DNA of 64,000 nt, from contig NZ_CP043507.1 in the NCBI RefSeq assembly GCF_008365315.1, positions 101,010 through 165,009 of the forward strand, read 5' to 3'. The notes under the pieces are model-generated. The model made no database searches. It was not told where the DNA came from and worked only from the letters and a program-made list of their open reading frames with translations. Positions 3,651 through 28,036 of the stretch are shown here, in pieces. The DNA is from Acetobacter vaccinii (lineage in GTDB: Bacteria; Pseudomonadota; Alphaproteobacteria; Acetobacterales; Acetobacteraceae). The translations under genes were made by a program, and so were the position numbers. Every line of letters starts with the position of its first letter. Positions within the stretch are counted from its first letter, which is position 1.

Positions 3651-3673
3651 AACCGGACAGTCCGTTTGCCCCC
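3651..3673 (+). repeat. Repeat E1, left part (interrupted by an IS1182 element)
   Basis: This matches the left arm of the other copies: AACCGGAC followed by AGTCCGTTT and a C run. The C run is broken by the IS that begins at about 3674. Joined to 5197-5302 it restores a complete copy with the same GAC-to-GAC length (about 115 bp) as E2 to E6. Confidence 0.8.
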
Positions 3674-5197
3674 GATAGTGTTGAAAAACTCATGGTGAAG
3701 AGTGAAAGTGTTGCCAAGCCATTTCGACATAAGTGCAGCTTTCTTGCCTCAGGTGGATAAGGTAGGCGCTCCGGGAGGTATCAGTTTCGCCATTTTGCGG
3801 AGATTTTGGGCAGCCGCGGCGAGATGGAACTCATCACGGGCGCCGTTTGGTCCTCTGAGCCTCAACCGATCGATCTTCAAAATGCGCTTGAGGTGAGCAA
3901 ACAGCATTTCGACCTTCTTTCGTTCTCGTCTGGAGATAATATAGGCGTCGGTTAAAGCAATGTCGCGGGCCATATCACGAGCGCCTTCATGAATAGAGCG
4001 CAGAACCTTACGATTGGGCTGATTGGGGCAGCATTTTGGTTTGAGAGTGCATACGTCGCACGCCAGTTTCGACGAACGGTATCGAAGTAGGTTGTCGGGA
4101 GGGGCATTTGGTTGATCCGAGTTGATCTTGCGCCACTGCTGCTTCAGTTGCTGTCCTCCAGGACAGATGTAAAGATCGTGCACGTGGTCATATGTGAAAT
4201 CTCGACGTTCGAAAGTCCCGTCCTGCCGGGCAGATTTGTCGAAGACCGGAATGTGAGGTTCGATGCCACGCTCATGAACCAGCCACGCAAGATTTTCAGC
4301 GGATCCATAAGCTGTATCCGCAGCAAGCCTTTCGGGCCATATTCCAAATGTTTCCTGCGTACGCTCTATCATTCTGCGTTGCGCCGTAACCTCGGCCTGC
4401 CGTATGGCTGTCGTGGTTTCTACATCCATGATGACAGCCGATTTAAGGTCAATGAGGTAATTTGTGCAGTAGGCATAATAAGCAAGGCCACCGCTTGCAG
4501 CGTTCCAACGTGCAGCAGGATCGGCCGGAGAGATATATTTTGGTTGCACGGACGTAGCAGACCCAAATGCAGCATCGTCCAGCACCGAGAAATACTCCCG
4601 CACAGCACGTTGGGCTGCCTCGATCGGCAGTTTATCTGGGCTCGGAACACTGCGCTGCCGATTAGCGTCGGCCTTAATCGTGCTGGCATCGACCGCAAAG
4701 CCGTCACCGCCCACCAGTCCCTTGGCGATGCACTGCCGGACGGTCATTTCGAACATTTGGCGAAGCAGATCACTCTCCCGGAAGCGTCCGTGCCGGTTTT
4801 TCGAGAATGTCGAATGATCTGGCACAGGGCCGTTAAGACCAAGGCCACAGAACCACCGGTAGGCCAGGTTAAGATGGACTTCTTCACATAGCCGTCGCTC
4901 GGATCGAATACCCATCACGTAGCCAACGATTAACATCCTGATGATCAGCTCGGGATCGATTGAAGGCCGCCCCGTGCCGCTGTAAAATGGGCGAAGATGC
5001 TCACGCAGACCGTCCAGATCAACAAAGCGATCAATTGAACGCAAAAGGTGGCCAGTTGGCACATGATCTTCAAGACGGAACTCGTAGAACAGTGCCTCCT
5101 GTATTTTCGTTCGATCACCCATCATTTGCAGGTTCCTCCTGCGAAGAGTGAATCAGTGCTTCACTCTCAAAGCAAGCACGACTTTTTCAACACTATC
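3674..5197 (-). mobile_element. IS1182-family insertion sequence
   Basis: About 1.52 kb, bounded by inverted repeats that share GATAGTGTTGAAAAA (left 3674-3688; right, reverse complement, about 5183-5197). It carries one transposase on the minus strand. The insertion is in the C run of repeat E1. Any target duplication would consist of C residues and cannot be delimited. Confidence 0.85.
3749..5125 (-). CDS. IS1182-family transposase
   Basis: DDE transposase of 458 aa, apparently intact. N-terminal DUF772-like region (RSIDRFVDLDGLREHLRPFYSGTGRPSIDPELIIRMLIVGY), then the NRHGRFRESDLLRQMFE and DAST(I)KADANR regions that carry the first Asp, and a C-terminal DDE part ending in the ERKKVEMLFAHLKRIL helix. 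The start ATG is preceded by AGGAGG about 9-10 bp upstream. It fills the IS at 3674-5197; nothing suggests a passenger gene. Confidence 0.92.
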   Translation of the reverse strand: MMGDRTKIQEALFYEFRLEDHVPTGHLLRSIDRFVDLDGLREHLRPFYSGTGRPSIDPELIIRMLIVGYVMGIRSERRLCEEVHLNLAYRWFCGLGLNGPVPDHSTFSKNRHGRFRESDLLRQMFEMTVRQCIAKGLVGGDGFAVDASTIKADANRQRSVPSPDKLPIEAAQRAVREYFSVLDDAAFGSATSVQPKYISPADPAARWNAASGGLAYYAYCTNYLIDLKSAVIMDVETTTAIRQAEVTAQRRMIERTQETFGIWPERLAADTAYGSAENLAWLVHERGIEPHIPVFDKSARQDGTFERRDFTYDHVHDLYICPGGQQLKQQWRKINSDQPNAPPDNLLRYRSSKLACDVCTLKPKCCPNQPNRKVLRSIHEGARDMARDIALTDAYIISRRERKKVEMLFAHLKRILKIDRLRLRGPNGARDEFHLAAAAQNLRKMAKLIPPGAPTLST

Positions 5198-5302
5198 CCC
5201 CCTAATCTGCCTGTCCGCTCAGTGATGCAGAAGCAGACAGGCGGCAGTCGCCCTCATCTCGGCCATTCGATCAAACTAAACATTTCCAACAACCAGACAT
5301 AG
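5197..5302 (+). repeat. Repeat E1, right part
   Basis: Carries the rest of the C run, the hairpin (left arm GCCTGTCCGCT at 5209-5219, right arm AGCAGACAGGC at 5232-5242), GGCAGTCGCC and CTCAT, an inner GGCCAT (5262) and the outer CCAGACAT (5294-5300). The inner and outer motifs are 34 bp apart, as in the other copies. The remaining stretch to 5445 has no gene. Confidence 0.85.
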
Positions 5303-5445
5303 CTGCATGGCGCATGGGCCCTGAAAATTTCATTAAACCAAACAAACCTATAACAGCGTATATAAAGCTCATTCCGATAGTCTCGCATTTTAGCAAGCTT
5401 TAGAATCGAAGAAAATTTTCATCCACCTTCAGGGTAGCCTTGGCG

Positions 5446-6342
5446 CTAACCCAATATAGGAATGCGAGTAGGAGCCGGTGGTATCAAGGTAAGCAATTCG
5501 CCTGGTTTAATTGTTTTGGATTTGGGCCATGATGTTAATATATTATTCAATTCTGGCATACATGATGCTATGCTAAAAATATAAAGTCCATCATAAAAAT
5601 GAACGAGTGACGCGACTAAACTTTTATTGTCAGAATTATATCTATAACCAAACTTACCTACAGAATTGTATTTACCTTGCTTAAGTATACCGTATGCAGG
5701 AAGTATGCGAATAATATTATCTGCGTATTTCTGGGAAAGACCAGCATTCAAAAACCAAGAAAACGTTACAGTGCCATGAAGTGGTAAAGCGTGTCCTGTA
5801 TGTTCACGGTATAGTGCCAAACCTAGCTTTGCGCTGAACGCATCAAGATAACCACGTAATATTGGGCCGTCAGTTGTTACTTCGACTGCTGGTTGAAGTA
5901 TACCACCATGGCTCGGCCTGAGAACTTGACGGTTCCTCGCAGGATGAGTGAATTCCTCCCATACGCCTGGCGCCCTCGCCATTACCGTTGGACGGTAGGC
6001 CAGAGCTTCACGGAACAATGGATCGTCTCTATTTGGCATCATTCTGAGTCTGGCAAAAACTGCAGCAACTACGTCGGCTCCTCGAGTGCCGTTGTTACAG
6101 GCTAAACAAGTAGCAAATTCTAATCCGCTAAGGCGCTGACCTTTGGTAAACATACACTTTGGCGGCATATGCTCAACAGTGGAAGCCGGGTTTTCACAGT
6201 AGATACACCGTGGTTTCCCTTTCAAAATTTCGGCTTTGCTGCGGCTTCGATGTTTTGCTTCTCCCATAGTGCAACAATAATCTATTTTGCTCATGAAGGG
6301 AATTGGCAGTAGCCTAGACTGCTTTTTACTAATCCTGCTCAA
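5446..6342 (-). CDS. HNH-type (CxxC...HxPPK...CxxC) putative nuclease
   Basis: Up to 298 aa. A treble-clef zinc finger is visible near the N-terminus: CIYCENPASTVEHMPPKCMF followed by CLACNNG, which is the CxxC/H/CxxC layout of HNH nucleases. The rest (about 200 aa) is unrecognised. The best-looking start by family comparison is the MGEAKHR Met at 6267 (shorter form of 273 aa). The longer form begins at a TTG (6342) that has AGAAGG 7 bp upstream, and this AGAAGG lies inside the left end of repeat E2. It is the only gene between E1 and E2. It resembles the HNH protein at 36714-37526 in length, in the MGE(R/A)K start and in the finger. It could be a stand-alone defence nuclease; the function is not shown. 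Confidence 0.75.
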   Translation of the reverse strand: MSRISKKQSRLLPIPFMSKIDYCCTMGEAKHRSRSKAEILKGKPRCIYCENPASTVEHMPPKCMFTKGQRLSGLEFATCLACNNGTRGADVVAAVFARLRMMPNRDDPLFREALAYRPTVMARAPGVWEEFTHPARNRQVLRPSHGGILQPAVEVTTDGPILRGYLDAFSAKLGLALYREHTGHALPLHGTVTFSWFLNAGLSQKYADNIIRILPAYGILKQGKYNSVGKFGYRYNSDNKSLVASLVHFYDGLYIFSIASCMPELNNILTSWPKSKTIKPGELLTLIPPAPTRIPILG

Positions 6343-6470
6343 AAGCCGACCTTCTGCTTTCCCCCCCCCTAATTTGCCTGTCCGCTCAGTGATGCAGGAG
6401 TAGACAGGCGGCAGTCGCCCTCATGGCAGACATCCAAATGGTTGTGACGGTTGCCCGAAAGCCGACATCG
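6341..6470 (+). repeat. Repeat E2
   Basis: Left GAC at 6348-6350, C run of 9 (6361-6369), hairpin arms 6376-6386 and 6399-6409, then GGCAGTCGCC and CTCAT, inner GACAT at 6429 and outer GACAT at 6464. GAC-to-GAC spacing is 116 bp and inner-to-outer spacing 35 bp. The hairpin right arm carries GTAG instead of GCAG, a G-U-compatible change. The 280 bp after the repeat (6471-6753) hold no gene that I can support. Confidence 0.85.
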
Positions 6471-6753
6471 CAGTGCGAAAGAAGCTGGGCCGGCCTCCGG
6501 CAGGCTGCTTTCGAGCGGTGATGCGCAAAAGCCTGACATTTGTCCAAAACGCAGCGGGTTCCGCCGATACCCCGAATCAGCAGTTCCGAGTTCCCTGCCT
6601 TCTGCTCACTTACCCGGTCAGCCCCGCCAAAACCCGTCCTTCCTGACCCGCGATGAGGCGTCCCGGACTAGGGATGACAAGAGATGCTGAACACGCATTT
6701 TGACTGAATACCAAGTTTTATACCTGCATAAAAAATGATGTTTGAAATCTGAT

Positions 6754-6772
6754 ATCATATTTAATATATGAT
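6754..6772. promoter_or_regulatory. Palindromic probable operator upstream of the HTH giant gene
   Basis: ATCATAT (6754-6760) and ATATGAT (6766-6772) are perfect 7-bp inverted arms around 5 bp, ending 5 bp before the start codon at 6778. The downstream gene begins with an XRE-type helix-turn-helix, so binding by its own N-terminal domain is a natural inference. Confidence 0.55.
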
Positions 6773-6777
6773 TTCCT

Positions 6778-9700
6778 ATGCCAAATATCGACCTCCCAAC
6801 ACCTCGTCAAGTCAAGGCCGCCCGTGCGCTGTTGGCGTGGACACAGACCGAACTCGCCAAGGAAGCAAAGATCGCAACCTCGACGCTTGCCGATTTCGAG
6901 CGCGGAGAACGGACGCCGATCGCCAACAATGCCGAGGCGATCGCTGCAGCGCTGAGGCGTCAGGGCATCACATTTACGCGTGGTGGCGCCGTCACCGGGT
7001 CCTCTCACATAACTGGGAAAAGCGTACCGAAGCCCGACGTCAGCGGAGGAGCGTTGCGCTGGATCACCGCGCAAAATCTCATCGAGTGGGCCGGACGCCG
7101 TGACGGCCCCGCCGGGCTGCCGGAACTTTTGACCCGGCTGATCCTGGTCAGCTGCGGTCCGGTCGCGCTACGTTTCCCCGCCGATGACAGCATCGCGCAT
7201 TCCGGCTGGGACGGCGTCGTCGAGTCCCCCGTCGCCACGCCTTACGTGCCGCAAGGTTTGTCCGCTTGGGAGTTCGGCGCACAGCGCGACGGTATCAAGG
7301 GCAAGGCTGACAAGGATTTCGAGAAGCGCTCGGCCGATCCCCAAGGAATCGACCCGGCCATGTCGACCTTTGTGTTCGTGACCCCGCAGCGCTGGGCGAA
7401 GAAGGACGAATGGGCCGCCGCCCGCCGTGCCGAGGGTGTCTGGCAGGATGTCCGCGTCATTGACGGCGACGAGCTCGTCCATTGGCTCGACTGCCATGCC
7501 GGCGTCGCCGAATGGCTGGCGGCGCGGATCGGCCGCCGCCCTGCGGGCCTGCGCAACCTACCCGAAGTGTTCGACGAATGGTCGCTTGCAACGCGTCCGC
7601 CGCTCACCCCTGATATCGTCACCGCCGACCGAGACGACGAGGTGGTCAAAGTGCTGCGTTGGCTCAATGCCGAGCCGAGCGTGATGCCGCTCCAGGCCGA
7701 GGCGGTCGATGAGGCGGTCGCGTTCCTCTATGCTGCGGTCAACCAGTTGCCCGAGCCGCACCGCTTGTTCTGGATGAGCCGGATCGTCGTCACGGATAGC
7801 AACACTATCGCGCGCGAGGTCGCCGGGTTGAGCGACAAGCTCGTCGTCGTGTTGACTGGCGGTGATCCCGGTCTTGCCGCTCGTCTGGTGCGCGACGGCC
7901 ACCACGTTTTCGCCGCCTACGGCTCGGACGTTGGCGCGCCCGCGACGGTGCTGCGGCTGCCACGGGCCTGGCGGCACACAATTGAGACCGCGCTTGAAGA
8001 TGCCGGAATCGAGCGCGGCGAAGCGCGCCGCTATGCGAGTGCCGCCGGCCGCAGTCTTGCCGTGCTTCGCCGGTTGATGCCCGCAGCCCCCGCCCGTCGC
8101 CCCGTTTGGGCGCAAGCGCCGCTCGTGCCGCCGCTGCTCGGAGCAATGCTCTCGGGCGCATGGGATCGCGATTATCCTGCCGACCGTGCGATCGTCGCCC
8201 GATTGTGCAACCTGCCATATGATACAGTCGAGGAAGCGCTCGCTCCACTAGCTGCTGCGCTCGACGGGCCGTTCCGTCGTTCGGGCTCGGTGTGGAAGCT
8301 GACCTCGCTGCGCGATAGCTGGTTCCTGCTCGCGAGCCATTTGACCACAGCGCAGGTCGAGACGCTGATCGCCGTGTTCCTCGAGGTGATGGGGGAAATC
8401 AGCCCGCGCTACAACGATCCCGATTATCGCTTCCGCTTTGATCGCAACCCGCCGACCGAGGCGTCGCCCAATCTCCGGCGCGGTTTGAGCGAAGCCGTGA
8501 TCGCGCTGGGCATCTGGCACGATCAGGTGAGCGGCGTCCCCGGTGCTGTGCATTTGAGCGAGCGCGCTGTTGCCGACCTGCTCGACGGCGCCGACGAGGC
8601 GCGTTGGTGGTCTCTATCGAACGACTTCCGACGGCTCGCCGAAGCAGGACCCGACGCCTTCCTCTCGGCGATCGACCGAGCACTTGACACCCAGCCAAGC
8701 CCGATCGCGTCCCTGTTCCGCAGCGACGAGGGCCTGCTCCACGCGCAGGAATATCTTTCCGACCTGCTCTGGGCGCTAGAAATTCTCTGCTGGAGCCCCG
8801 ACCATGCCGGGCGTGCGACCTTAATCCTCGCGCGCCTCGCTGAAGCGGATCCCGGCGGCAAGATCGCCAATCGTCCCAAGGAAACGCTTGCGCGGATCTT
8901 CCTTCCGTGGCGCCCGCAGACGTTCGCGTCGCCCGCCGAGCGGATCGCGCTGATCGACGTAATCGTCAAGCACTGGCCGATGGTTGGCTGGAACCTTCTT
9001 GACGCCATTTCACCAACCGTCGTTGGGGGCATTACACATCCGACCGCCAAGCCGCTGTGGCGCGACTTCTCTACCGACGCACCCGAGATCATCACCAACC
9101 GGTCGCTCTCTGAAATGTATGCGGCGATCGGCAAACGGCTGCTCACCATGGCCGGAGGCGATCCTTTGCGCTGGGAAAAGGTGCTCGACCATTGGGCGAG
9201 CTTCGACGCCGCATGGCGCGTCAGCGCCGAGCGGGCCCTGACGGCGGCGGTTATAGGGTTCGATGCCGATGCGCGCCAGATTTTCCGCGAGAAGTTGCGG
9301 CTGTTCATCGCCAAGCATGCGCGCTTCCCCGACGCGCATTGGTCGCTCAATGTCGAGGAGTTGAAGCCGCTCGAGGATATTTTCGCCGATCTCGAACCAA
9401 GCTCTGTGAAACATCGCCATGCGTGGCTGTTTGGACACGCCAATCCACGGTTCGATACGAAGTTGAGCTGGCAGGAGCAGCAAGCGCGAACCGAAGCCGA
9501 GCAGATCGCGGCGGTCGAGGAACTCGCGCAAGGCCTGACCGACAACGACTTGGTCGACTACGGGTTGACCGTCGAACGGCCCGACTTCTTGGGCAGCGCG
9601 GTCGCGCTGAGCACGCTCGCACCCGCGCGGAAAGAGGCGATGCTCCGCTTGGCGTTCGCACGGGGCAAGGGCAATATCGAGCGCTTTGTCAGCGGGCTGC

Positions 9701-10815
9701 TCTGGGGGTTGAAACGTCAGAGCGGCGAAACAGCGATGCGCGAGCGGCTGGTCGAAGCGATCGCGGCCACGCGGCCCGCCGTCGAGATCGCGACGATCGC
9801 GTTCACACTCGATGCCGTCGCAGACACTTGGAATCTGATCGCGAGCGCAGGTGACGAAACCGAGCGGCTCTATTGGTCGCGGCTCAACCTGCAGATCATT
9901 TCTGAGCAGGAAGACGTCACTGTCGTCGTCGATAAGGCGCTCGGCGTTAACCGCGGGCGCGCCGCGTTAAGCTATATCGCAGGGCACGAGAACCTGACCG
10001 TCGCGCGTGACCTCATCGTGCGCGTAATGCGCGATCCCTCAACGATAAGCGGCTCGGGCAATGCCGAGGACGATAATGATAGCAGCCTGTTCGGTTGGTA
10101 TGTCGGCAAAATCTTCGAGCGCCTCGATGCCATTCCGGGGTTCGAATCCGAGGTGGCCACGCTCGAATGGATCTACTTCTCTGCACTCCAGCACTCAGAG
10201 CGGCCTCCGCGCGCCTTGTACCGGCTGATGGCGACGGACCCCGACTTCTTCGTGATGTTGCTGAAGGCGCTCTATAGCAGCGAAGGTGGCAATGAGACCC
10301 CGCTTACCGGCGAAGCGCTCGAGAATGTCGAGAGGATAACATCCCAGGCCTTCCACGTTTTCGAGGATTGGTCGCGGATCCCGGGGAGCAATGACGACGG
10401 CACGATTGATGGGGCGAAACTATCGGCTTGGGTCGAACGTGCGCGCGCTGCTTCGGCCGAAGCTGACCGCGGCAGGATCGCCGACTATCGCATCGGCGTG
10501 ATCCTGTCCGCCGCGCCGCGCACCGGCGGCCAGGCCTGGCCGCCCGAGCCTGTCCGCGACGTGATCGAAACGGTCGCAAACGACGATATCGACCAAGGGT
10601 TCTTGATCGGGCGCTTCAATCGTCGCGGGGTCACCACGCGCATGCCGAACGATGGGGGCGATCAGGAACGCGATCTCGCAGCGCGCTATCGTGCCGACGC
10701 CAAGGCTAGCGCGTTGCTCTGGCCGCGAACCCGCGCTGTGCTTGAAAAGATCGCCAAGGGCTATGAGGCCGATGCAGTGCGCGAGGATCAAAGCGCCGAG
10801 CAGCGCGACTGGTAA
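6778..10815 (+). CDS. Giant (1345 aa) XRE-HTH protein with a putative nuclease-like domain, family not recognised
   Basis: Residues 8-70 form an XRE-type helix-turn-helix (QVKAARALLAWTQTELAKEA...STLADFERGERTP). After a short linker, residues 90-245 form a compact domain with GWDG (143-146), SAWEFG (163-167) and a Lys/Asp-rich KGKADKDFEKR (174-184), then a hydrophobic strand TFVFVTPQRW. This spacing of Asp, Glu and Lys is compatible with a PD-(D/E)XK-like nuclease fold, but I cannot prove it. The remaining 1100 residues are largely helical with repeated Trp and Leu patterns and no Walker A motif that I can see. High GC, single gene between E2 and E3, start at the ATG 5 bp after a palindrome. 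Likely a large defence sensor or effector; this is inference. Confidence 0.75.
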   Translation: MPNIDLPTPRQVKAARALLAWTQTELAKEAKIATSTLADFERGERTPIANNAEAIAAALRRQGITFTRGGAVTGSSHITGKSVPKPDVSGGALRWITAQNLIEWAGRRDGPAGLPELLTRLILVSCGPVALRFPADDSIAHSGWDGVVESPVATPYVPQGLSAWEFGAQRDGIKGKADKDFEKRSADPQGIDPAMSTFVFVTPQRWAKKDEWAAARRAEGVWQDVRVIDGDELVHWLDCHAGVAEWLAARIGRRPAGLRNLPEVFDEWSLATRPPLTPDIVTADRDDEVVKVLRWLNAEPSVMPLQAEAVDEAVAFLYAAVNQLPEPHRLFWMSRIVVTDSNTIAREVAGLSDKLVVVLTGGDPGLAARLVRDGHHVFAAYGSDVGAPATVLRLPRAWRHTIETALEDAGIERGEARRYASAAGRSLAVLRRLMPAAPARRPVWAQAPLVPPLLGAMLSGAWDRDYPADRAIVARLCNLPYDTVEEALAPLAAALDGPFRRSGSVWKLTSLRDSWFLLASHLTTAQVETLIAVFLEVMGEISPRYNDPDYRFRFDRNPPTEASPNLRRGLSEAVIALGIWHDQVSGVPGAVHLSERAVADLLDGADEARWWSLSNDFRRLAEAGPDAFLSAIDRALDTQPSPIASLFRSDEGLLHAQEYLSDLLWALEILCWSPDHAGRATLILARLAEADPGGKIANRPKETLARIFLPWRPQTFASPAERIALIDVIVKHWPMVGWNLLDAISPTVVGGITHPTAKPLWRDFSTDAPEIITNRSLSEMYAAIGKRLLTMAGGDPLRWEKVLDHWASFDAAWRVSAERALTAAVIGFDADARQIFREKLRLFIAKHARFPDAHWSLNVEELKPLEDIFADLEPSSVKHRHAWLFGHANPRFDTKLSWQEQQARTEAEQIAAVEELAQGLTDNDLVDYGLTVERPDFLGSAVALSTLAPARKEAMLRLAFARGKGNIERFVSGLLWGLKRQSGETAMRERLVEAIAATRPAVEIATIAFTLDAVADTWNLIASAGDETERLYWSRLNLQIISEQEDVTVVVDKALGVNRGRAALSYIAGHENLTVARDLIVRVMRDPSTISGSGNAEDDNDSSLFGWYVGKIFERLDAIPGFESEVATLEWIYFSALQHSERPPRALYRLMATDPDFFVMLLKALYSSEGGNETPLTGEALENVERITSQAFHVFEDWSRIPGSNDDGTIDGAKLSAWVERARAASAEADRGRIADYRIGVILSAAPRTGGQAWPPEPVRDVIETVANDDIDQGFLIGRFNRRGVTTRMPNDGGDQERDLAARYRADAKASALLWPRTRAVLEKIAKGYEADAVREDQSAEQRDW

Positions 10816-10925
10816 TGCTCCATCCTCAAGATTTTACGCCACCCGTACCAGAGGAAGGTTCTAACATCGCTAGACATACAGTTTAGACGAACAGGAATGT
10901 CTGCCATTTTATGCTCGAGCGAAGA

Positions 10926-11047
10926 TACCGGACATTCCGCTTCCCCCCTGATCTGCCTGTTTGCTCAATGATACAGAAGCAGACAGGCGGCAGTCGCCTC
11001 ATAGGCGACATAGCCAACGGATAGTGTAGCTCCGAGAAGCGGACGTT
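10926..11047 (+). repeat. Repeat E3
   Basis: Left GGAC at 10930-10933, C run of 6, hairpin left arm GCCTGTTTGCT and right arm AGCAGACAGGC, then GGCAGTCGCC and CTCAT, inner GACAT at 11007 and outer GACGT at 11042. GAC-to-GAC spacing is 111 bp. The hairpin left arm differs from the other copies by two T for C changes. One creates a T-A pair where most copies have a C/A mismatch; the other gives a G-U type pair. The flanks 10816-10925 and 11048-11128 hold no gene. Confidence 0.85.
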
Positions 11048-11128
11048 CGATTATACGTTCCAGTCTTGGTAGGCAGTCAAAGCACGCCTCTCGATACAGC
11101 TATCTTGGCAGTCAGATAATAGTCGCCG

Positions 11129-11290
11129 TTATGTATGCTCCAGAAAACCCAGCATCTGCGTGGTAAAAACCTCGGTTGTATAGACATTGGAGATATGAGA
11201 TGCCTCTTCTATCAACACGAAATCTGCGTTTGGAACGTAATCAGCCATCCGGAGACCAGCCTCAGACACCGACGCATCAGTCTGCGGAAC
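11129..11290 (-). pseudogene. C-terminal fragment of an alpha/beta hydrolase
   Basis: The frame reads VPQTDASVSEAGLRMADYVPNA and then DFVLIEEASHISNVY, ending MLGFLEHT. This matches the end of 3-oxoadipate enol-lactonase type alpha/beta hydrolases, with the catalytic His in ASHISN. The upstream part of the gene is missing and replaced by an IS5 fragment starting at about 11265-11285. A remnant only. Confidence 0.65.
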
Positions 11291-11511
11291 CACCAGTAAA
11301 TGGTCTGCCACGGACCAAAATGAACCGGCAACATTTTCCAGCTACAGCCCGAGCGGGCAAGATAGCGCAGCACATTGGTGAGCTCACGAAAATCGGTCGT
11401 CCGTTTCCAGCCGTGCCTGTTCGCATGAGGCATCAGGGGCGCTAATCGTTCCCATTCTTTATTAGTCAGGTTAGGCAGATAACGCTTCGTTCTGCGGGTG
11501 ATGTCGGCCAT
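11265..11511 (-). pseudogene. N-terminal fragment of an IS5-family transposase
   Basis: About 80 residues match the start of IS5-family transposases: YLPNLTNKEWERLAPLMP, then SGCSWKMLPVHFGPWQTIYWWFRR. The frame then runs into unrelated sequence (the hydrolase remnant). The DDE core is absent. A probable terminal region of the element continues to about 11600, without a clear partner repeat. Confidence 0.75.
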
Positions 11512-11603
11512 CCAGACCCGCTGCTCTGGCGTCCAAATCCAGTGCTTGAATCACACGCCAGACTCCCTGAAAAGCCCCTCATGCTGAATTTCCAAAAGGG
11601 CTC

Positions 11604-13342: not shown

Positions 13343-13380
13343 TGCTACTCCTTGGGCCGACAGGAACCTGGGTGTTCCTG

Positions 13381-13398: not shown

Positions 13399-13457
13399 AC
13401 TTGTTAGCTTATAGGAACAAATTTATCCTAAAGAACCATAAATAACCATGGAATCTG

Positions 13458-19002: not shown

Positions 19003-19042
19003 ACAGGAACTGATTGCCAACTGAGCTTAGGAGTCAGGCACC

Positions 19043-19954: not shown

Positions 19955-20069
19955 TCATCATCCTCAGTTGTGACTGATGTCTCGTATCGACAATTTATCC
20001 AGCGAAAAAGAGGAATATGCTGAAGGCTTCGAGTGATTGGCAAGTCCAGTTCTGATGGAGACTTTCGAA

Positions 20070-20399
20070 ATGCCTGTTTATCTTGTGCGCATGGACCACC
20101 CTGACGGCGAGGGATGGGGACAGCATGTCGCAGCACACGTGTTGTATCTCAGGCACCTTATTCAGGAAGGCAGCCTGCTGGCCTCCGGTCCGTTGAAAGG
20201 GACCCCATTGCGCTCCGGCTTTCTGATTATGAAAGGTGCCAATCGGCAGGAGATTGACGTAATGATTGCCGGTGATCCCTTCGCATTAGAAGATTTGATT
20301 TACGATCTGCGCATTGAAGAATGGGATCCTCTGTTTGGTTGCCTTTCAGATCATGCGACAGGGGCTCTCCCGCAAGAATTGAAGTCTATTTTTCCTTGA
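20070..20399 (+). CDS. YCII-family protein
   Basis: 109 aa from the ATG at 20070 (GGAG 7 bp upstream). YCII fold hallmarks: MPVYLVRMDHP, AHVLYLRHLIQEGSLLASGPL, and GDPFALEDLIYDLRIEEWDPLFG. The conserved His near VAAHVLYL and Asp in GDPF line the YCII pocket. Exact reaction unknown; relatives are dehydratase or dehalogenase-like partners in aromatic degradation. 48 bp before the MBL gene, same strand. Confidence 0.82.
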   Translation: MPVYLVRMDHPDGEGWGQHVAAHVLYLRHLIQEGSLLASGPLKGTPLRSGFLIMKGANRQEIDVMIAGDPFALEDLIYDLRIEEWDPLFGCLSDHATGALPQELKSIFP

Positions 20400-20447
20400 T
20401 GGCGACAGTTCTGTATTTTTTAAGAAATAAAAACGAGAGGGAGCCTT

Positions 20448-21341
20448 ATGCTTCTGAACGATCTTCAGTGGTATACTGTGGGGGATGCCCGTATTCTAAA
20501 AATACAGGATCTGACGCTGGCAGAACTCTCTCCAGAACAGTTGTTTCCAGATTGGGACGAAGCAAAAGCTCTTCAGATTTGCCCCCGACTACCTGAAACG
20601 CTGGATAGTTCAGAAACGAAAGTCCTTTTGAGCGTTCATAGCTGGCTTATTGAGGATCGCGGTCGAAAAATTCTCATTGATACGGGAGTTGGAAATAACA
20701 AAGCCCGACCTGCGGCCCTGTATTTCGATCACTTGCAGACTGTGTGGCTTGAAAATCTGATGCGCGCTGGTGTCAGTCCAGAAGACATCGATTTTGTTCT
20801 TCTTACCCATCTGCATGTTGATCATGTCGGGTGGAATACACGCCTGCAAAATGGGATCTGGGTTCCGACCTTCCCAAATGCCCGATATGTCTTTTCTAGG
20901 GCCGAATATGATTTTTTTAGCAATCCGGCTCATGATAGCATCCGCAATAAAACCAGTTTCATGACACGCATTGATAGCGTTGATCCGATTATCTCGGTGG
21001 GTCTCGCAGATCAGATTGACGTAGACGGATCCGAAGTTCTTGAAGGAATTTCCTTTCATCCCACACCTGGGCATACGCCACATCATGCATCTGTAGTGCT
21101 GAAATCAGGGATGGAGCGTGCGCTCTTCACGGGTGATGTCATGCATCACCCCATTCAGGTGTGTTTTCCGGAGTGGAGTGCTGTCTTTGATGCAGACCCT
21201 CAGACAGCCATCATATCACGCAAATGGGCTTTGAATTACGCTGTCGAACACGATGCGGCATTATTCACATCGCATTTTCCGATAACATCGGCTGGAAGAG
21301 TGATGACGTCCGACCAGGAAAGGGGTTGGTCTTTCCTCTAG
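20448..21341 (+). CDS. MBL-fold metallo-hydrolase (lactonase-like)
   Basis: 297 aa. Metal-binding motif HLHVDHVGW (HxHxDH), later His in PTPGHTPHHASV, Asp in LFTGDVMHHP and a final His in TSHFP, so the full dinuclear site is present. Closest in layout to quorum-quenching or aryl-lactone lactonases of the MBL group. GGGAG 6 bp before the ATG. Probably co-transcribed with the YCII gene and under the LysR regulator. Confidence 0.88.
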   Translation: MLLNDLQWYTVGDARILKIQDLTLAELSPEQLFPDWDEAKALQICPRLPETLDSSETKVLLSVHSWLIEDRGRKILIDTGVGNNKARPAALYFDHLQTVWLENLMRAGVSPEDIDFVLLTHLHVDHVGWNTRLQNGIWVPTFPNARYVFSRAEYDFFSNPAHDSIRNKTSFMTRIDSVDPIISVGLADQIDVDGSEVLEGISFHPTPGHTPHHASVVLKSGMERALFTGDVMHHPIQVCFPEWSAVFDADPQTAIISRKWALNYAVEHDAALFTSHFPITSAGRVMTSDQERGWSFL

Positions 21342-21379
21342 GGCTGGCATTATGTCTGCTGTTCACCTCGTTCTATTCC

Positions 21380-21508
21380 TTTGCGGACATTCTGCTTTCC
21401 CCCCCCTAATCTGCCTGTCCGCTCAGTGATGCAGGAGCAGACAGGCGGCACTCGCCGTATGTCAGACACGTGAGATAGCGGTTTGATTTCCGCATAACGG
21501 ACACGGGC
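21380..21508 (+). repeat. Repeat E5
   Basis: Left GCGGACAT at 21383-21390, C run of 8, hairpin GCCTGTCCGCT against AGCAGACAGGC, GGCACTCGCC (one change from the other copies), GTAT in place of CTCAT, inner CAGACAC at 21463 and outer CGGACAC at 21498-21504. GAC-to-GAC spacing is 114 bp. The next 450 bp (21509-21960) hold no gene; they become very AT-rich just before the ATPase gene. Confidence 0.85.
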
Positions 21509-21960
21509 AGCACAATCTCTCTCGGGCTAGTTGGGCCGATTACTGACAGCCCGGTTTGGAGCAGAAAACGAGATAATCTGCCGTTGGCGAAGGGGACGCA
21601 CCAGTGGGTGACAACTAAAAATAGACATAGGCCTACGAAGCTGCGTTATTTTCTATCGGCGCGAGGATTGGACAAGATCATCATTAAATTCGAAGGAAAA
21701 AGTAACGACGTCAGCATAGAGACCCAGATTTGAACATGCCACTTAAGGCCGTCCAGTTCACCTGAAACGGCACGAGCCAGATCACACTCCAGAATGAGCA
21801 AACTGTTTCACAGCTGCAAGATATGAACCAGATTGAAATGAAAATTTTCTAGCAAAGCAGGAATAATCATTTATAAATATATTTTCCGACGCATTGAAAA
21901 AAATGTTGATAACAAATAATTTTAATTTTATTATTAAAATATTAAAAAAGGAATGTGTCA

Positions 21961-23568
21961 GTGACTAACATAGAAAAAATTCAGAAAAATCTGATGAATA
22001 TTGAAAAAAGAGCTGAAAAAGTAGATGATGCAAAGCTAAAAGAAACATTTGTTAATGCCACACCACTTCTTGATGTTGTGTCAACAAGTCATAATCAGAT
22101 AATTTTCGGTCGTAGAGGAACTGGGAAAACACATCTTTTGAAGTATATCTCAGATTTGATGAGAGAAAATGGTGACCTAGACGTTTATATAGATTTGAGA
22201 ACCGTTGGGTCGAATGGATCTATTTATAATGATGAGAATTTGTCTACGTCTGAGAGAGCGACACCGTTATTGCTGGATGTTTTGCAGAACATTCATGATA
22301 GTCTTTTAGGCATAATTGTTAGTGATGAAATGTATGATTTGGGAAAGCTCGGCCCATTATTGGATGCATTTGCCGATTCTTGTTCTGCGGTCAAAGTTGT
22401 TGGTACCGTCGAGACATACGAAGAAAAAATGAATGATACAAAACAAGAGGACAAATTATCACTTGGGGCAAATGCTGATTTCAAATCATCTTCATTGAAG
22501 GGTGGGTTTTCTTCCACGGAAACAATTAATAAATCCGAAAAAAAAACGGAGAAAAAAACTGGAAGTCAACGATACTATGTGAATTTTGGAGATGTACAAA
22601 GGACGTTAAAAAACATTATTAATACAATACATGGAAAAAAAATATATGTATTTCTTGATGAGTGGAGTGAGGTGCCTATTATTTTGCAACCATACCTTGC
22701 CGATTTGATTAGGCGATGCATTATTCCTTTGAAAAATATCACAGTGAAAATTGCAGCTATAGAGCATCGGTCTAACCTATCAATATCGAAAGGCAATGGA
22801 GAATATATTGGTCTCGAATTGGGGGCAGATATTGGAGGGGATGTTAGTCTAGATGACTTTATGGTCTTTGATAATGATTCAAAACGATCTGTGCAATTTT
22901 TTTCAGACTTATTATTTAAACACTACAAAGCATCAATAGAAGAAAACGAAAAAATATCCAATTCTGTAGATTTTATACAAGCTCTATTTACTCAAAATAG
23001 TGCATTCGAGGAGTTTGTTCGCTCATGTGAAGGCGTGCCACGCGACGCAGTTTACATGATCTCTATGGCTGCCAGAAAAGCGTTTAACAGAACTATCAAT
23101 ATACACGATATTAGAATTGTTGCTAGAGATTGGTATTCTCGAGATAAATCGCAAATACTTAGGACTATGCCGGCACTGAATGATTTATTAACATGGATTA
23201 TAGAAGAAGTTATTGGAAAACGGCGGTCACGTGCGTTTCTGTTAAAAACAAACGAGCGACATAAATTGATCGATTCCCTCTTTGATGCCCGTTTAATACA
23301 TATTCTAAAGAAAAATATATCTTCTAATGACACTCCAGGTGTGCGTTATGATGTATATAAACTCGATTACGGCTGTTATGTAGATCTAATTTCAAGTAGT
23401 AAAGCACCTCGAGGTTTATTGCTGCAAGGAGACACTCCAGAAAATATAGAAGATGATGGTGAGTTTGAAAGCTTCAATCATCTGGATGTTCCTCCAGACG
23501 ATTATCGATCAATAAGAAGGGCTATTTTAGATTTATCAAAATTTGATAGCCACGCAGAACAGGCTTAA
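21961..23568 (+). CDS. Stand-alone P-loop (ORC/CDC6-like AAA) ATPase
   Basis: 535 aa from the GTG at 21961, 9 bp after AAGGA; another in-frame GTG is two codons upstream. Walker A FGRRGTGKTH sits near residue 50-58 and Walker B KKIYVFLDEWSEVP near 227-239. A Lys/Ser-rich insert lies between them (about 160-205). The C-terminal 300 aa contain a helical and probably winged-helix part. It belongs with archaeal-style ORC/CDC6-like P-loop proteins that occur as single genes in bacterial defence islands; I do not recognise a named system. AT-rich compared with its neighbours, and the only intact non-IS gene between E5 and E6. Confidence 0.8.
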   Translation: MTNIEKIQKNLMNIEKRAEKVDDAKLKETFVNATPLLDVVSTSHNQIIFGRRGTGKTHLLKYISDLMRENGDLDVYIDLRTVGSNGSIYNDENLSTSERATPLLLDVLQNIHDSLLGIIVSDEMYDLGKLGPLLDAFADSCSAVKVVGTVETYEEKMNDTKQEDKLSLGANADFKSSSLKGGFSSTETINKSEKKTEKKTGSQRYYVNFGDVQRTLKNIINTIHGKKIYVFLDEWSEVPIILQPYLADLIRRCIIPLKNITVKIAAIEHRSNLSISKGNGEYIGLELGADIGGDVSLDDFMVFDNDSKRSVQFFSDLLFKHYKASIEENEKISNSVDFIQALFTQNSAFEEFVRSCEGVPRDAVYMISMAARKAFNRTINIHDIRIVARDWYSRDKSQILRTMPALNDLLTWIIEEVIGKRRSRAFLLKTNERHKLIDSLFDARLIHILKKNISSNDTPGVRYDVYKLDYGCYVDLISSSKAPRGLLLQGDTPENIEDDGEFESFNHLDVPPDDYRSIRRAILDLSKFDSHAEQA

Positions 23569-23986
23569 ATACTATTACTATTTTGGCAGAATCTCTTGTG
23601 GGGACCGAAGTAGAAGGTTTCCACAGTCTGGATATTGTCCGATAGATGGCCGCAGTATGCGATCAAGAATAGTCTGTCGTTGTTACTGGCAGACTGGGGT
23701 GTCGAAGTAGACCAGTGACGCTTGTTTCCGCCCGACCCCCGTGAGGTGCCAAGACTGGAGATAAGACGTAGGCCATCATGGTCATAAGAGCGTGTCGGTA
23801 CAGGCCTGTCCATGATCGCGCCTCAAGGTAATGGAGGCCCAGTTCCTCCTTGAGTTGCTGATGTGTTATTCGCAGACTCATCCGGCTTTGATCGCAGCGG
23901 TCAGTGGCCTAAGGGCTGTGTCAGCAGGCAGGTTGTGCAGATAGCATTTCCGTTCTCCGATGGAACGGTGCTCACCAATAAGCTAG

Positions 23987-24841
23987 GGCGTGTCGTCAGT
24001 TAATTCCGATGATGGCGGAGACGAGTTGCACTGCTGCGAGGAAGGTCGATTTCAGTTTGTCGTAGCGTGTTGCAATGCCCCTGAACTGCTTCAGCTTGGC
24101 GAAGAAGCGTTCGATTTCGTTTCTGTTTTTGTAGAGCTGGAAGCTGATTTTCCGTGGATTGCGTCGGTTTTTCCTTGAAGGGATAACCGGTGCGATCTGC
24201 CGTTCTTCGAGCTTTTCGATAAGCGGGCCAGCATCATAAGCCTTGTCGGCAATGATGGCTTCGGGGCCGACTTCGTCCAGCAAGGGGTCTGCTTCCGTGA
24301 TATCCGCTCTCTGCCCGGGCGTCAGGGATAGCATCACAGCCTTTCCTGCGGCATCGACAACAGCGTGGATTTTTGTGGTCAGTCCGCCACGGGACCGTCC
24401 GATGGCCTGATCTGCGCCCCTTTTTTACGGGCGCCGGCGCTATGCTGGTGAGCACGGACTATCGTGCTGTCGATCATCATGTATTCGTTGTCGTGGTCAG
24501 CCGCCAGATTCCGGAAAATACGCTCGATCACACCGCTTTCGCACCAGCGGCGCAGTCGCCGATGGACGTTCTTCCAGTCTCCAAAACGGGTCGGCAGATC
24601 ACGCCAGGGAATGCCTGCGCGGTAGCGATACAGAACCGCTTCCACAAACAAACGGTTATCCGTGGCCGTACCGTCAACGTGGCCCTCACGACCCGGGAGA
24701 AGGTCTTTTATCCGAGCCCACTGATCATCGCTCAGACCATACCGTCGCATCTCTGTATCTCCCCGAAAAACAGAGAGAAAACATCACAGATCAAACAGGA
24801 GTACAAGCCTCATGCCACTCCCCCCTAACTGACGACACGCC
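23987..24841 (-). mobile_element. IS5-family (IS427-group) insertion sequence, 855 bp
   Basis: Ends carry the 16-bp inverted repeat GGCGTGTCGTCAGTTA. The element is flanked on both sides by CTAG (23983-23986 and 24842-24845), the YTAR target duplication typical of the IS427 group. It is inserted in the IS701 pseudogene, so it is younger than that element's decay. Confidence 0.9.
23996..24750 (-). CDS. IS427-group transposase made by -1 frameshifting (orfA/orfB)
   Basis: orfA (24750-24379, 123 aa) carries RRYGLSDDQWARIKDLLPG and the first catalytic Asp region MIDSTIVRAHQHSAGARKKG. orfB (to 23996) continues GADQAIGRSRGGLTTKIHAVVDAAG..., ADKAYDAGPL and the final RNEIERFFAKLKQFRGIATRYDK. The join falls at an A6G slippery run (24420-24426 on the coding strand), so a normal programmed -1 shift gives the full DDE enzyme. 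Likely active. Confidence 0.88.
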
Positions 24842-25034
24842 CTAGGCTCATTCCCCGGGCATATGCATGGGCCATGCGACCACCGATACGTTGGGCTGGA
24901 CCACATGCAACGCGTATTTGTATAGTTGCAAAGTAGGCTGCCAGGCAACCTTGGGTCCCAAGATGCCAACTGATCCTGCGCCATGTGGCAGTTTCCAATA
25001 TCTTATGGGGAGGAACAGAGTGCTGATCCGGTAA

Positions 25035-25265
25035 CGGATGCAGCCGAGATGGTCCTCGAATTCGAGGACTTGCATGCTGACAAAGCGTTCGACAGTACCA
25101 CCATCATCGCTGAACTCGACAAAAGGGAAGATACGGCTGTCATTTCCCATCCCCCAAGGCGCTCCAGGCTGCAGCCACTAGATCGGGAAATGTATAAATG
25201 GCGACATCTGATCGAGAACTTCTTCTGCAAGCTCAAGGAGTTCAAACAGATCGCAATGCGCCAAT
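25035..25265 (+). pseudogene. C-terminal fragment of another IS5-family transposase
   Basis: Encodes ADKAFDSTTIIAELDKRE...SRLQPLDREMYKWRHLIENFFCKLKEFKQIAMR, the IS5 C-terminal DDE part. It stops at IAMR, a few bases before repeat E6 begins, while the family normally continues YDKTDxSF. The fragment is therefore cut at the repeat boundary. Confidence 0.8.
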
Positions 25266-25266
25266 A

Positions 25267-25395
25267 AAACCGACCTTCCGTTTCCCCCCCCCCTGAACTG
25301 CCTGTCCGCCCAAGGAACGTGAAGCGGACAGGCGGCAGACGCCTCATCTCAGGCATAATTATCAGTATAATGAATTACGAAAAGCAGACGTCGGC
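25267..25395 (+). repeat. Repeat E6
   Basis: Left CCGAC at 25270-25274, C run of 10, hairpin GCCTGTCCGC against GCGGACAGGC (a fully paired 10-bp stem with a changed loop), GGCAGACGCC and CTCAT, inner AGGCAT at 25351 and outer CAGACGT at 25385-25391. GAC-to-GAC is 115 bp and inner-to-outer 35 bp. The next 300 bp (25396-25692) contain no gene and end in an AT-rich leader. Confidence 0.87.
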
Positions 25396-25692
25396 AAAAG
25401 ACAACGAACTTCATGCGTGATCTGCAGGAAGATTCACGCTCTCGTCATCCATCGGATGCATTTCTGCGCCCATGTGGCGTCTGGATTGTGGTCGCATAAT
25501 TCCGATGTCCTCCGATTATTACGGTAGACAGGAAATCACACAGTACGCATCAAAACTAGCGGATATATAGAACCCATCCATTGTCTGCATGGCAGTCATA
25601 TGCAGATTGTCGCAGATCAAAGTGTTGCTGACATTAACGACATTGGCTAGAATAAATAAAAAGTCATTAATTGCGGTGTAAATTTTAAAGAA

Positions 25693-26763
25693 ATGATTAA
25701 TTTTAAGAAGATTTCAGATCTAGATAAATTTAATTATATAATAGGCGATAATGGATCTGGGAAAAGCTTATTTTTAGCGAATAAAGCCACTGAATTATCT
25801 TTATGCCGTCCAGTAATAGTAATTTCTTTTGGAACCTTTGATAAATTCACGTATGGGTCTCGTCCCAAAATGACGGCAAATGGCTCCTATACATATCAAG
25901 GAAACCGTACCGTTGGTAACGGAATTCATAACGGCACCATGTCTGCAAATGTTGTCATTTTATATACGAAAATCATAAATAAAAAACGCTTAAAAAACAT
26001 AAATGATTTTTTAGAATCAATTGGATTTGATAAAAGAGTTGGTATTTCTTACAGAGAAACCAAATCAAAAAGTCAATATCGATTTGATATGGTAGATTTA
26101 AATGCGAGTTACATAAAAAATAACCATGAAATTCTCAGTGCAAAAGAAAAGCCTTTCGAAGGAGTATTTTATAAAAAAGGACAGCATTTTTTGTTCTCGA
26201 GTTTGAGTTCTGGAGAGCAGCTCATTATTTCGACCGCCTTAAAAATCATTGCCAATTCACAAGATGATGCATGTTTCTTCATTGATGAGCCTGAGATTAG
26301 TCTACATGTTGAGTGGCAAGTAAAATGGCCAGAAAAATTCCAATCTTTGCTTTCGATAGATTCAAACACCACTGCCTATATTGCGACACACTCACCGGTT
26401 ATTATATCTAGCGCCCTTAAGTCTGGAGCGAATTGTTTCTATATGAAAGAAGGAGATCTTATCAAAATAGATGAAAATGACTTCAACGTAGAAGGAATTA
26501 TATTCAACGAATTCAATACGATCACTCCGGATAATAAATATTTATACACTGAGTTAGCCGATGTTATCTCTTCTGCGGTAGAAAAATTGAGCACAGGAGG
26601 CGCATCTGCGCCTGAAGAGGTGCGGAAAGATTTTGAGAAATTGAAAGAGAAAATTTCTAATACCTCCAAAACAATGGCGAGCGCTGATGCAGCAAGCAAA
26701 ACGATCAAGGATTTTGAATTAGCTATTGAAGATTTAATTCGACTTTCTGAAGATTTGATCTAA
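25693..26763 (+). CDS. ptuA: Septu-like defence ATPase (PtuA-type)
   Basis: 356 aa ABC/SMC-like ATPase. Walker A GDNGSGKS (18-25), signature LSSGEQ (171-176), Walker B CFFIDEPE (194-201) followed by ISLH, and the H-loop ATHSP (231-235). There is no long coiled coil, and a Lys/Glu-rich helix closes the C-terminus. With the HNH gene 5 bp downstream it forms the PtuA-PtuB pair of Septu, an anti-phage system in which the ATPase scaffold controls the HNH nuclease. AT-rich, consistent with transfer. No reverse transcriptase or retron RNA is visible next to it, so a retron-linked version is unlikely. Confidence 0.82.
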   Translation: MINFKKISDLDKFNYIIGDNGSGKSLFLANKATELSLCRPVIVISFGTFDKFTYGSRPKMTANGSYTYQGNRTVGNGIHNGTMSANVVILYTKIINKKRLKNINDFLESIGFDKRVGISYRETKSKSQYRFDMVDLNASYIKNNHEILSAKEKPFEGVFYKKGQHFLFSSLSSGEQLIISTALKIIANSQDDACFFIDEPEISLHVEWQVKWPEKFQSLLSIDSNTTAYIATHSPVIISSALKSGANCFYMKEGDLIKIDENDFNVEGIIFNEFNTITPDNKYLYTELADVISSAVEKLSTGGASAPEEVRKDFEKLKEKISNTSKTMASADAASKTIKDFELAIEDLIRLSEDLI

Positions 26764-26768
26764 ATTGT

Positions 26769-27479
26769 GTGGGTTTATTTAAAATGTATGACGATCTCTT
26801 AGACGAAATAAAAAATGTTTATAAGGAAAACCAAAAAAAAAGACGTGATGCTATTTCAATTTTCGCCTCGGGATATTTTTCTCGAGCACAGGCGAACGAA
26901 CAGCGACTGTGGTCAAAATTATATGACGATACGCCTTTGGGGCCAAAAGTTCACAATGGCATCCGGAACTATGTTTTAAAAACTAGCGTACGATGTGCGT
27001 ATTGCCAAGATCGCATATTCCACAATGCCAACTTTAACATTGACCATGTTCTTCCTAGCGCGATCTTTCCACAATTTACATTTACTCCCCAAAATCTGGT
27101 GGCAGCTTGCGTAACATGTAATGCGATAAAAAAAGAGACAAATTTCTATACCGCTACTAGTTGCATGTCCCAATATCCTCTGGCCAACTATTCGTGGGGA
27201 AGCTTTCATCCAAAGCTCCATCTATATAATGATCATATCCGAATGATTTTTATACATACCAATCATTTCGCAGTTCGAGCTTTCATGGGTAAGTCACCCG
27301 AAGGAGTAAACTTATGTAAAAACTTTCTTAAGGAAGTTACAGAGTTTACTACTAAATCGCCTGCAAACCCTAGTATAGCACATGCGGTAGATTCATTGCA
27401 AAATTTCATTTCATCATATGCAATACAACCAGGCACTAATTTACAGAACATCCTCAACCAACTCATTAAGTACGTTTAA
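26769..27479 (+). CDS. ptuB: HNH nuclease partner (PtuB-type)
   Basis: 236 aa (or 231 aa from the ATG at 26784). HNH core: CAYCQDRIFHNANFNIDHVLPSAIFPQFTF, then NLVAACVTCNAIKK, with two CxxC pairs, the catalytic DH and the second Asn, all present. It immediately follows the ATPase gene and is co-directional, the standard Septu arrangement. Likely the DNA- or RNA-cutting effector. Confidence 0.82.
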   Translation: MGLFKMYDDLLDEIKNVYKENQKKRRDAISIFASGYFSRAQANEQRLWSKLYDDTPLGPKVHNGIRNYVLKTSVRCAYCQDRIFHNANFNIDHVLPSAIFPQFTFTPQNLVAACVTCNAIKKETNFYTATSCMSQYPLANYSWGSFHPKLHLYNDHIRMIFIHTNHFAVRAFMGKSPEGVNLCKNFLKEVTEFTTKSPANPSIAHAVDSLQNFISSYAIQPGTNLQNILNQLIKYV

Positions 27480-27533
27480 ATATTTATTGAATTTTTATGA
27501 AAATTTATCTTGCCTAATCCGCTGTTTGAAAAA

Positions 27534-27850
27534 TCACGGGTGAGCGTTTCCGCGCATGAGATTGGCCCCATGGCAACGAGAATCATGGCCCTTGAAGCGT
27601 CGATGCGACGCTCGTAATCCCGGACCAGACGCCGGCAGCTTGTCATCCAGCCGAAGGTTCGCTCCACGACCCACTGGCACCTCAACGTCTCTCACGCCCT
27701 CGCGGCCGCGGATGATCTCAAGGACGAAGTAGAGATAGGGTGCCGTCGGCGCACAGATGCTACCCATGGCCAACACCGGCGGATGGCATCCAGAATTATC
27801 TTTGCTCCGGCACTGTCTGAGATGTCGGCTGGATCAGGTTCATCATAAGG
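27534..27850 (-). pseudogene. Internally deleted IS5-family transposase remnant
   Basis: On the minus strand, DEPDPADISDSAGAKIILDAIR (27781-27850) is followed after a gap by DFVLEIIRGREGV and WVVERTFGWMTSCRRLVRDYERRIDASRAMILVAMG in another frame. Both are parts of one IS5 subgroup, with the middle section missing. Dead. Confidence 0.7.
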
Positions 27851-27918
27851 AGGAGCGATTCTGTATCTACAACATCTACAACATCTATAACGTCTGTTAT
27901 CCTGTAATCGTTCCTAGA

Positions 27919-28036
27919 TAGCAGACGTTCGGTTCCCCCCCCCAGTTTGGCCGCTTGAGTCGCACTAACTAAGACAAAATACTGGTGCCAAAAATTAGCA
28001 GCTCGTGAGTCGCGCCAATTAGGGAAACCGACATAC
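27919..28036 (+). repeat. Repeat E7, diverged copy next to the recombinase
   Basis: The left end GCAGACGTTCGGTT and a C run of 9 match E2 to E6, and the right end AACCGACAT matches the outer motif. GAC-to-GAC is 106 bp. The middle differs: TTTGGCCGCTTGAGTCGC and GTGAGTCGCGCCAATT replace the usual hairpin and the CTCAT block. It stands between the module array and the recombinase gene, the position an attI site has in an integron. Confidence 0.7.

Follow-up and report, generated by a model that had tools for sequence, protein, structure and literature searches.

Integrons are the textbook route by which bacteria gather and reorder gene cassettes. They are made up of an IntI integrase, an attI site and cassettes with attC sites, and include chromosomal arrays. 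Other systems built on tyrosine recombinases are the pdif modules of Acinetobacter plasmids, which are flanked by short XerC/XerD sites, the FimB/FimE-type DNA invertases, which are tyrosine recombinases of about 200 amino acids (aa) made of the catalytic domain, and the Xer recombinases XerA, XerD and XerH, whose targets are dif sites and which carry a core-binding domain at the N terminus. Here we describe a repeated site of about 165 bp that separates unrelated gene modules in a stretch of 64,000 nucleotides from Acetobacter vaccinii (G000:C2:101010-165009, hereafter the window), which is the end of the 165-kb contig C2, a contig with a RepC-type replication gene. Comparison of the copies of this site and of their flanks indicates that modules move as cassettes at the repeated site. 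We consider it likely that the sites exchange modules in an integron-like manner, most likely via a small tyrosine recombinase (hereafter the mini-integrase) that would act on GCGGACAT half-sites and join modules beside a palindrome.

The anatomy of the site was read from 69 aligned copies from many strains. The left part consists of an inverted half-site AATGTCCGCTTT (S1), about 20 nt, AAAGCGGACATTC (S2) and a C run (breakpoint X1), the stretch before the C run reading AAAGCGGACATTCCGCTT in the alignment. The middle part is a palindrome of the form GCCTGTCYGCTC-loop-GAGCRGACAGGC followed by GGCAGTCGCC (breakpoint X2), and the right part consists of CATGTCGGACAT (S3), about 25 nt and CCGAAAGCGGACAT (S4). 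A module was defined as the DNA from S4 of one copy to S1 of the next. The C run, the hairpin and GGCAGTCGCC, which an earlier note made from the window alone had listed as features of the repeat, are conserved over the 69 copies; the repeat reaches about 40 bp further left than given in that note, being preceded by the inverted half-site S1. The word GCRGAC of the outer half-sites recurs in the palindrome arms (read off the alignment). RNAalifold placed 11 pairs in the palindrome with compensatory changes in three of them, so that inverted repeats bound by protein describe the arms no less well than a folded structure does, and recognition of the hairpin by structure alone was rejected on this ground. 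The RYYYAAC/GTTRRRY ends of attC, which the earlier note had found missing, were present as a pair in only one of 228 copies (two in shuffled copies). At locus L054 the copies 346, 7370 and 14213 have the same unusual palindrome variant within one array, with different flanks.

In the window, six copies (E1 to E6) lie on the + strand with unrelated modules between them and are 69-100% alike over 70 nt ungapped. E1 is interrupted by an insertion sequence, which leaves a left part (3651..3673, +) with the half-site S2 and the start of the C run, and a right part (5197..5302, +) with the C run, palindrome, GTCGCC, S3 and S4. E2 (6341..6470), E3 (10926..11047), E4 (12620..12745), E5 (21380..21508) and E6 (25267..25395) are full copies, all on the + strand. 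In an independent search of the whole genome, a covariance model of 48 copies returned 14 copies (six on contig C2, six on contig C3 and two on the 2.8-Mb contig C1), including all of E1 to E6. The six-copy comparison and this search agree with the earlier note in treating E1 to E6 as one repeat family of a single orientation, and its GAC-to-GAC distances were exact (E2 116, E3 111, E4 110, E5 114, E6 115, E7 106). Its seventh copy, E7 (27919..28036, +), resembles the others in its outer half-sites and C run only; it lacks the palindrome that forms the hairpin, no profile search recovered E7, and the right half-site of this degenerate site enters a recombinase gene.

Within the genus group, 22 of 25 genomes gave DNA matches to the site, compared with none of 16 from other families, and the 40 matching plasmid records were all from Acetobacter, Gluconobacter, Komagataeibacter or Kozakia. 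An exact-pattern search with 20 fixed bases in one genome per species (84,980 species) yielded 77 stretches, all from Acetobacter, Komagataeibacter, Gluconobacter, Gluconacetobacter or Novacetimonas. In the searches made the site is confined to acetic acid bacteria, where both plasmids and chromosomes carry it. Before copies were counted, nhmmer matches less than 150 bp from a stronger match (self-matches of the palindrome) and identical copies in overlapping loci were dropped. Among the resulting 210 distinct copies, spaced 0.7 to 12 kb apart, 95 of 104 neighbouring copies were co-oriented, which fits the one-way arrays that the earlier note had predicted and not the two-way scatter it had named as the mark of a miniature inverted-repeat transposable element (MITE). 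The E-values of copies used to build a profile are not independent evidence. When 71 loci from other taxa were Markov-resampled, the 48-copy profile found nothing in them at E ≤ 0.01; two site profiles gave nine rows, or seven places, at this threshold in 69 other loci (822 kb) and none in Markov-resampled sequence.

Flanks of 400 bp were compared among all site copies. Flank sharing was found for 189 distinct pairs of copies, with 96 sharing the left flank (three of these having only an insertion sequence in common), 96 the right flank and three both; when the count was limited to the 177 pairs for which all four flanks could be read, again only three shared both. Both kinds of sharing involve the window: four other loci have the left flank of E5, combined each time with another right flank, and three have the right flank of E4 behind left flanks that differ. 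For three complete modules found in different places, both neighbours had changed in five of five comparisons. The clearest case of presence and absence is a 706-bp module that reads as a RelB/DinJ-RelE toxin-antitoxin pair (named from sequence alone). It is present in Acetobacter cibinongensis (L107, L107_5368 to L107_6130), absent in Gluconobacter oxydans H24 (L037_23044), where the outer flanks are 98% and 90% identical, and found elsewhere in an uncultured Gluconobacter (L076); the difference amounts to one module plus one site copy. A second case (L065/L139) is weaker, with a left flank 79% identical over 122 bp. Precise gain or loss of a cassette at the site, as in integrons, was observed in one clear and one weaker case, next to the three modules with new neighbours. 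The reused modules and the presence/absence case support the cassette platform proposed in the earlier note: module content varies between strains while the site persists, and module order differs between relatives.

Breakpoints were mapped on pairs whose flanks were at least 95% identical. For shared left flanks, 23 pairs in 13 flank groups were counted after omission of three pairs sharing an insertion-sequence flank (two of them unmapped); 12 pairs (five groups) broke at X1, ten (eight groups) at X2, so that 22 of the joins lie beside the palindrome, and one beyond the site, with none of the 23 at profile positions 31-71. With the insertion-sequence pairs kept there are 26 left-shared pairs, 13 at X1 and ten at X2. 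For shared right flanks (98 pairs) the common sequence starts at X1 in six pairs, at positions 31-71 in 11, at X2 in 38, at positions 92-111 in 21, at S4 in 12 and beyond the repeat in ten. Eight of the 11 inner breaks fall at 54-71, the near-invariant right arm beside X2, and are indistinguishable from X2. This pattern implies that the palindrome can move together with the DNA on either side of it, and S4 appears to be an additional place where DNA is joined. On the Acetobacter pasteurianus plasmid pAPA26-020 (L223:19765-19917) the palindrome lies between two head-to-head right halves beside a mini-integrase gene, an arrangement that reads as an inversion product.

Clustering of the proteins encoded around the site copies revealed the mini-integrase as a 212-aa protein at a median distance of 463 bp from the site. 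It is a catalytic-domain-only tyrosine recombinase (PF00589 at residues 45-199, E 5e-22) with the residues R63, K91, H160, R163 and Y195 (R-K-HxxR-Y) invariant in 26 sequences. Its nearest solved relatives by sequence and fold are XerA, XerD and XerH, from which it differs by the missing core-binding domain. It has a weak match to the FimB/FimE-type model NF007371 (26.6 bits vs. a cut-off of 222), and in contrast to those invertases no single invertible segment is present here. In 17 of 17 distinct Acetobacteraceae contexts the site is directly upstream of the mini-integrase gene on the same strand, at a distance of 83-91 bp (83 or 84 bp in 15 of the 17), with the right half of the site constant and the left sides differing. 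Contexts were considered distinct if a stretch of upstream sequence differed, and matches with less than 85% identity or starting after residue 3 were omitted from this count. The A. vaccinii genome has the mini-integrase at C3:8229-8864 and a degenerate copy on contig C1.

Homologues of the mini-integrase were identified in 71 of 396 Pseudomonadota genomes (including that of A. vaccinii) and in 405 plasmid records, which makes the question of a second cassette system testable in many laboratory hosts. For 53 homologues outside the genus group (including paralogues of one genome, with same-genus degenerate copies left out) the flanking sequence was scored with the S4 motif. Scores of at least 10 were reached in 16 of the 53 stretches upstream and 18 of the 51 downstream, against 11 among 196 control genes and 15 among 530 Markov sequences, and 20 column-permuted S4 motifs gave 0 to 5; the 25 best downstream matches were all on the + strand. 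More than half of the homologue stretches had no half-site at a score of at least 10. When two degenerate same-genus copies were included, 25 of the 55 upstream stretches and 23 of the 53 downstream ones were above the 95% Markov level. On the Methylobacterium radiotolerans plasmids pMRAD01 and pNYY1_1 we found 22 copies of a site version of their own, one-stranded in 7/7 and 15/15 copies, respectively, and both mini-integrases of pMRAD01 adjoin a site and read away from it. A module common to the two plasmids (catalases, amidotransferase) ends with CCACCC^ and begins with ^CGACCC, the equivalents of X1 and X2. A Blastomonas plasmid has five copies of a third site version on one strand and two overlapping matches on the other. 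Sixteen regions that surround mini-integrases of other taxa were compared with themselves for dense repeats, which gave mostly shared gene ends. Relatives about 40-51% identical to the mini-integrase occur on enterobacterial and Vibrio plasmids, and the single relative looked at more closely, from an Escherichia coli plasmid (L224:7989-8591), has half-site matches on both sides.

Compared with integrons, the system is alike in its directional module arrays with one site per module, in a tyrosine recombinase gene beside the site and reading away from it (in the 17 contexts and twice on pMRAD01; the window's array lacks this gene), in its toxin-antitoxin cassettes, in clusters without a local enzyme and in site versions differing by genus. 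It is unlike them in that the palindrome is conserved in sequence, the enzyme consists of the catalytic domain only and the site spacing reaches 12 kb. An integron proper was rejected on the attC ends given above and on the IntI comparison, in which the mini-integrase (P0001) scored 18.8 bits against TIGR02249 (cut-off 265) over residues 131-198 only; its relatives from Methylobacterium and E. coli had no match to this model at E 1e-3. Because site and enzyme both fall outside what defines integrons, the array appears to be a cassette platform that works like an integron and is built differently. It also differs from pdif modules, since the site is a composite of about 165 bp and mostly in one orientation.

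In the proposed mechanism, dimers of the mini-integrase would bind the GCRGAC half-sites around the C-rich cores X1 and X2, a module would be excised as a circle carrying a hybrid site, and the excised module would be inserted at another site. X1 and X2 might each be a core, or they might mark where a single long staggered exchange begins and ends. Arrays without a local enzyme would be served by the mini-integrase in trans, in the case of the window from contig C3, and enzyme-less arrays of this kind would correspond to the clusters of attC sites lacking integrases (CALINs) of integrons. The mini-integrase as the enzyme, circles as intermediates and action in trans on the window's array are what we infer from the data, and the enzyme assignment is the main uncertainty. 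Several points weigh against this scheme. Recombination itself was deduced by comparing sequences, and the breakpoint pairs are not independent of each other. The right-shared joins (98 pairs, 11 groups) are less sharp than the left-shared ones and not confined to X1 and X2; 72 of these pairs come from one 13-member group, the mini-integrase module, and the other 26 start at X1 (four), positions 31-71 (nine), X2 (11), positions 92-111 (one) and S4 (one), with none beyond the repeat. Nine of the 104 neighbouring copies are in opposite orientation. The window's array has no mini-integrase gene of its own; the enzyme is recognisable in 12 and of full length in seven of the 25 same-genus genomes (sites being present in 22), and its AlphaFold model is of low confidence (predicted local distance difference test score, pLDDT, of 63). 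Iterative profiles detected no array in the enzyme-bearing plasmid stretches of Novosphingobium (L220) and Roseomonas (L222). Finally, the mini-integrase could be a passenger cassette.

If it were a frequent passenger of a true cassette system, the host XerC/XerD or another enzyme would join the modules. This is the strongest of the alternatives, and still one we regard as rather unlikely. Every module is flanked by sites, so that flanking half-sites alone are no proof that the enzyme acts there; most array-bearing genomes of the genus group have no full-length mini-integrase, and the A. vaccinii genome has ten Pfam tyrosine recombinase matches. Against it stand the repeated occurrence of this one recombinase at a fixed distance from the site, its intact catalytic residues and the half-site that accompanies homologues about 47-67% identical in many families. 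Shuffling of modules by homologous recombination between dispersed repeats, for which the likeness of the copies over about 110 bp and the 11 right-shared breaks at 31-71 could speak, appears improbable: left-shared pairs do not break in this interval, eight of the 11 right-shared breaks are not separable from X2, the arrays are directional, and equivalent breakpoints recur in Methylobacterium despite a different site sequence.

A MITE-like or repetitive extragenic palindromic (REP)-like element spread by transposition, with the modules as merely intervening DNA, would account for the many intergenic palindromic copies and for the palindrome variant shared within the L054 array. Such an element should leave the same two flanks with and without it; only the three pairs mentioned share both, all three keep the element (no separate search for empty sites was made), and neighbouring copies stand 95 to nine in orientation, which makes this explanation very improbable. 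Least probable of all is that the tyrosine recombinase after E7 (28029..28854, +) is the integrase of the window's array, as the earlier note had supposed from its place directly after E7 and its direction away from the array. Contig C3 holds an intact version of this gene (open frame of 348 aa), of which the copy after E7 has lost the 5' end, and the homology begins at the last half-site of E7, CCGACAT, opposite the gene-internal TGCGACATTACG; E7 looks like an array end joined into the gene at a half-site. Relatives of at least 48% identity were found only in the A. vaccinii genome and in one of 40 other genomes (G011). In the 16.6 kb surrounding the copy on C3 no site match was obtained, and the copy at C2:94058 is followed, after about 1.7 kb, by a right-half match only. 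This recombinase was consequently rejected as the driver. DUF6538 recombinases (about 480-530 aa) were rejected as well, since they formed one cluster in seven loci at a median of 4.6 kb from the site and their position was not constant in the two arrays compared (L052, L056). Exchange through the mini-integrase is the reading that we prefer.

In a wider reading, towards which we lean with less confidence, a second cassette-capture system exists across Pseudomonadota in parallel to integrons, in which catalytic-domain-only recombinases, GCGGACAT half-sites and genus-specific composite sites would build up, on plasmids as well as chromosomes, directional arrays whose modules serve metabolism or defence or encode toxin-antitoxin pairs. 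Its site versions would be a long palindrome in acetic acid bacteria, a short palindrome in Methylobacterium and a single C-rich core in Blastomonas. We rate the system of site and mini-integrase as a new kind of cassette system distinct from integrons; a search of the open-access literature, with most subscription papers and preprints outside its scope, gave no account of the site or the recombinase as a cassette system. If true, it would explain how accessory genes are assembled on the large plasmids of acetic acid bacteria and Methylobacterium, would offer a minimal recombinase without a core-binding domain, and would bear on the arrival of accessory genes on enterobacterial plasmids, where relatives of the enzyme occur. 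The site profile together with the mini-integrase provides a handle on module boundaries and on unknown defence genes.

The Septu-like pair recognised in the earlier note was confirmed in the module between E6 and E7 (25396..27918, +), where a PtuA ATPase (25693-26763) is followed by a PtuB HNH nuclease (26769-27479) as adjacent genes spanning 25693-27479 (PADLOC E 7.7e-41 and 2.5e-27, respectively). Weak or no defence matches were obtained for proteins in four of the other modules, namely a 298-aa protein without Pfam family and with a weak PtuB match (PADLOC E 5e-4; open reading frame, ORF, 5446-6342) in module E1-E2 (5303..6340, -), a 1345-aa protein (6778-10815) with an N-terminal HTH_3 domain in module E2-E3 (6471..10925, +), a 239-aa protein without family (11604-12323) in module E3-E4 (11048..12619, -) and a 537-aa Sll1717/ORC-CDC6-like ATPase (21955-23568) in module E5-E6 (21509..25266, +), which also has a transposase remnant (23996-24337). 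Module E4-E5 (12746..21379) encodes two NmrA-like proteins, Rrf2, DUF2938, AraC, SDR, LysR, YciI and a metallo-beta-lactamase-fold protein. An array dedicated to defence, as the earlier note had it, does not hold, as other arrays contain enzyme/regulator pairs, transporters, toxin-antitoxin pairs, formaldehyde detoxification and regulators. Apart from its HTH_3 domain the 1345-aa protein is familyless, and similarly large single genes adjoin sites in L042 and L045. On three plasmids (L037, L044, L045) a mutagenesis cassette of imuB/dnaE2 is found together with par genes near arrays; imuA/imuB/dnaE2 are also near the mini-integrase of the Novosphingobium plasmid (L220), where no array was detected.

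The element interrupting E1 (3674..5196, -) lies inside the C run and is an insertion sequence with the ends GATAGTGTTGAAAAA and TTTTTCAACACTATC, 15-bp inverted ends and a transposase ORF (3749-5125) with DUF772 and DDE domains according to a family search; it is not the HNH gene that the earlier note had placed there, which was rejected. The insertion sequence is presumably IS1182-like. Across its locations, eight of ten distinct flanks (both ends counted) begin with five C or five G, and several flanks show a recognisable site alongside (window 3674-5196; L001, L004, L047, L048, L050). The C run of the repeated site appears to be the target of the insertion sequence.

In the window no Rfam family was found at gathering score and no tRNA. 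Following the truncated recombinase, 28851-30367 holds two ORFs of 233 and 271 aa that match no Pfam family; they are kept with the recombinase on contig C3 (84.8% over 2288 bp) and therefore look like one mobile unit with it. Further right of the array (30677-32233) is an AAA ATPase with a C-terminal TIR domain that matches the candidate defence models PDC-S59 and PDC-S66, and left of E1 (63-3446) are the M and S genes of Type I restriction-modification together with an Mrr-type nuclease.

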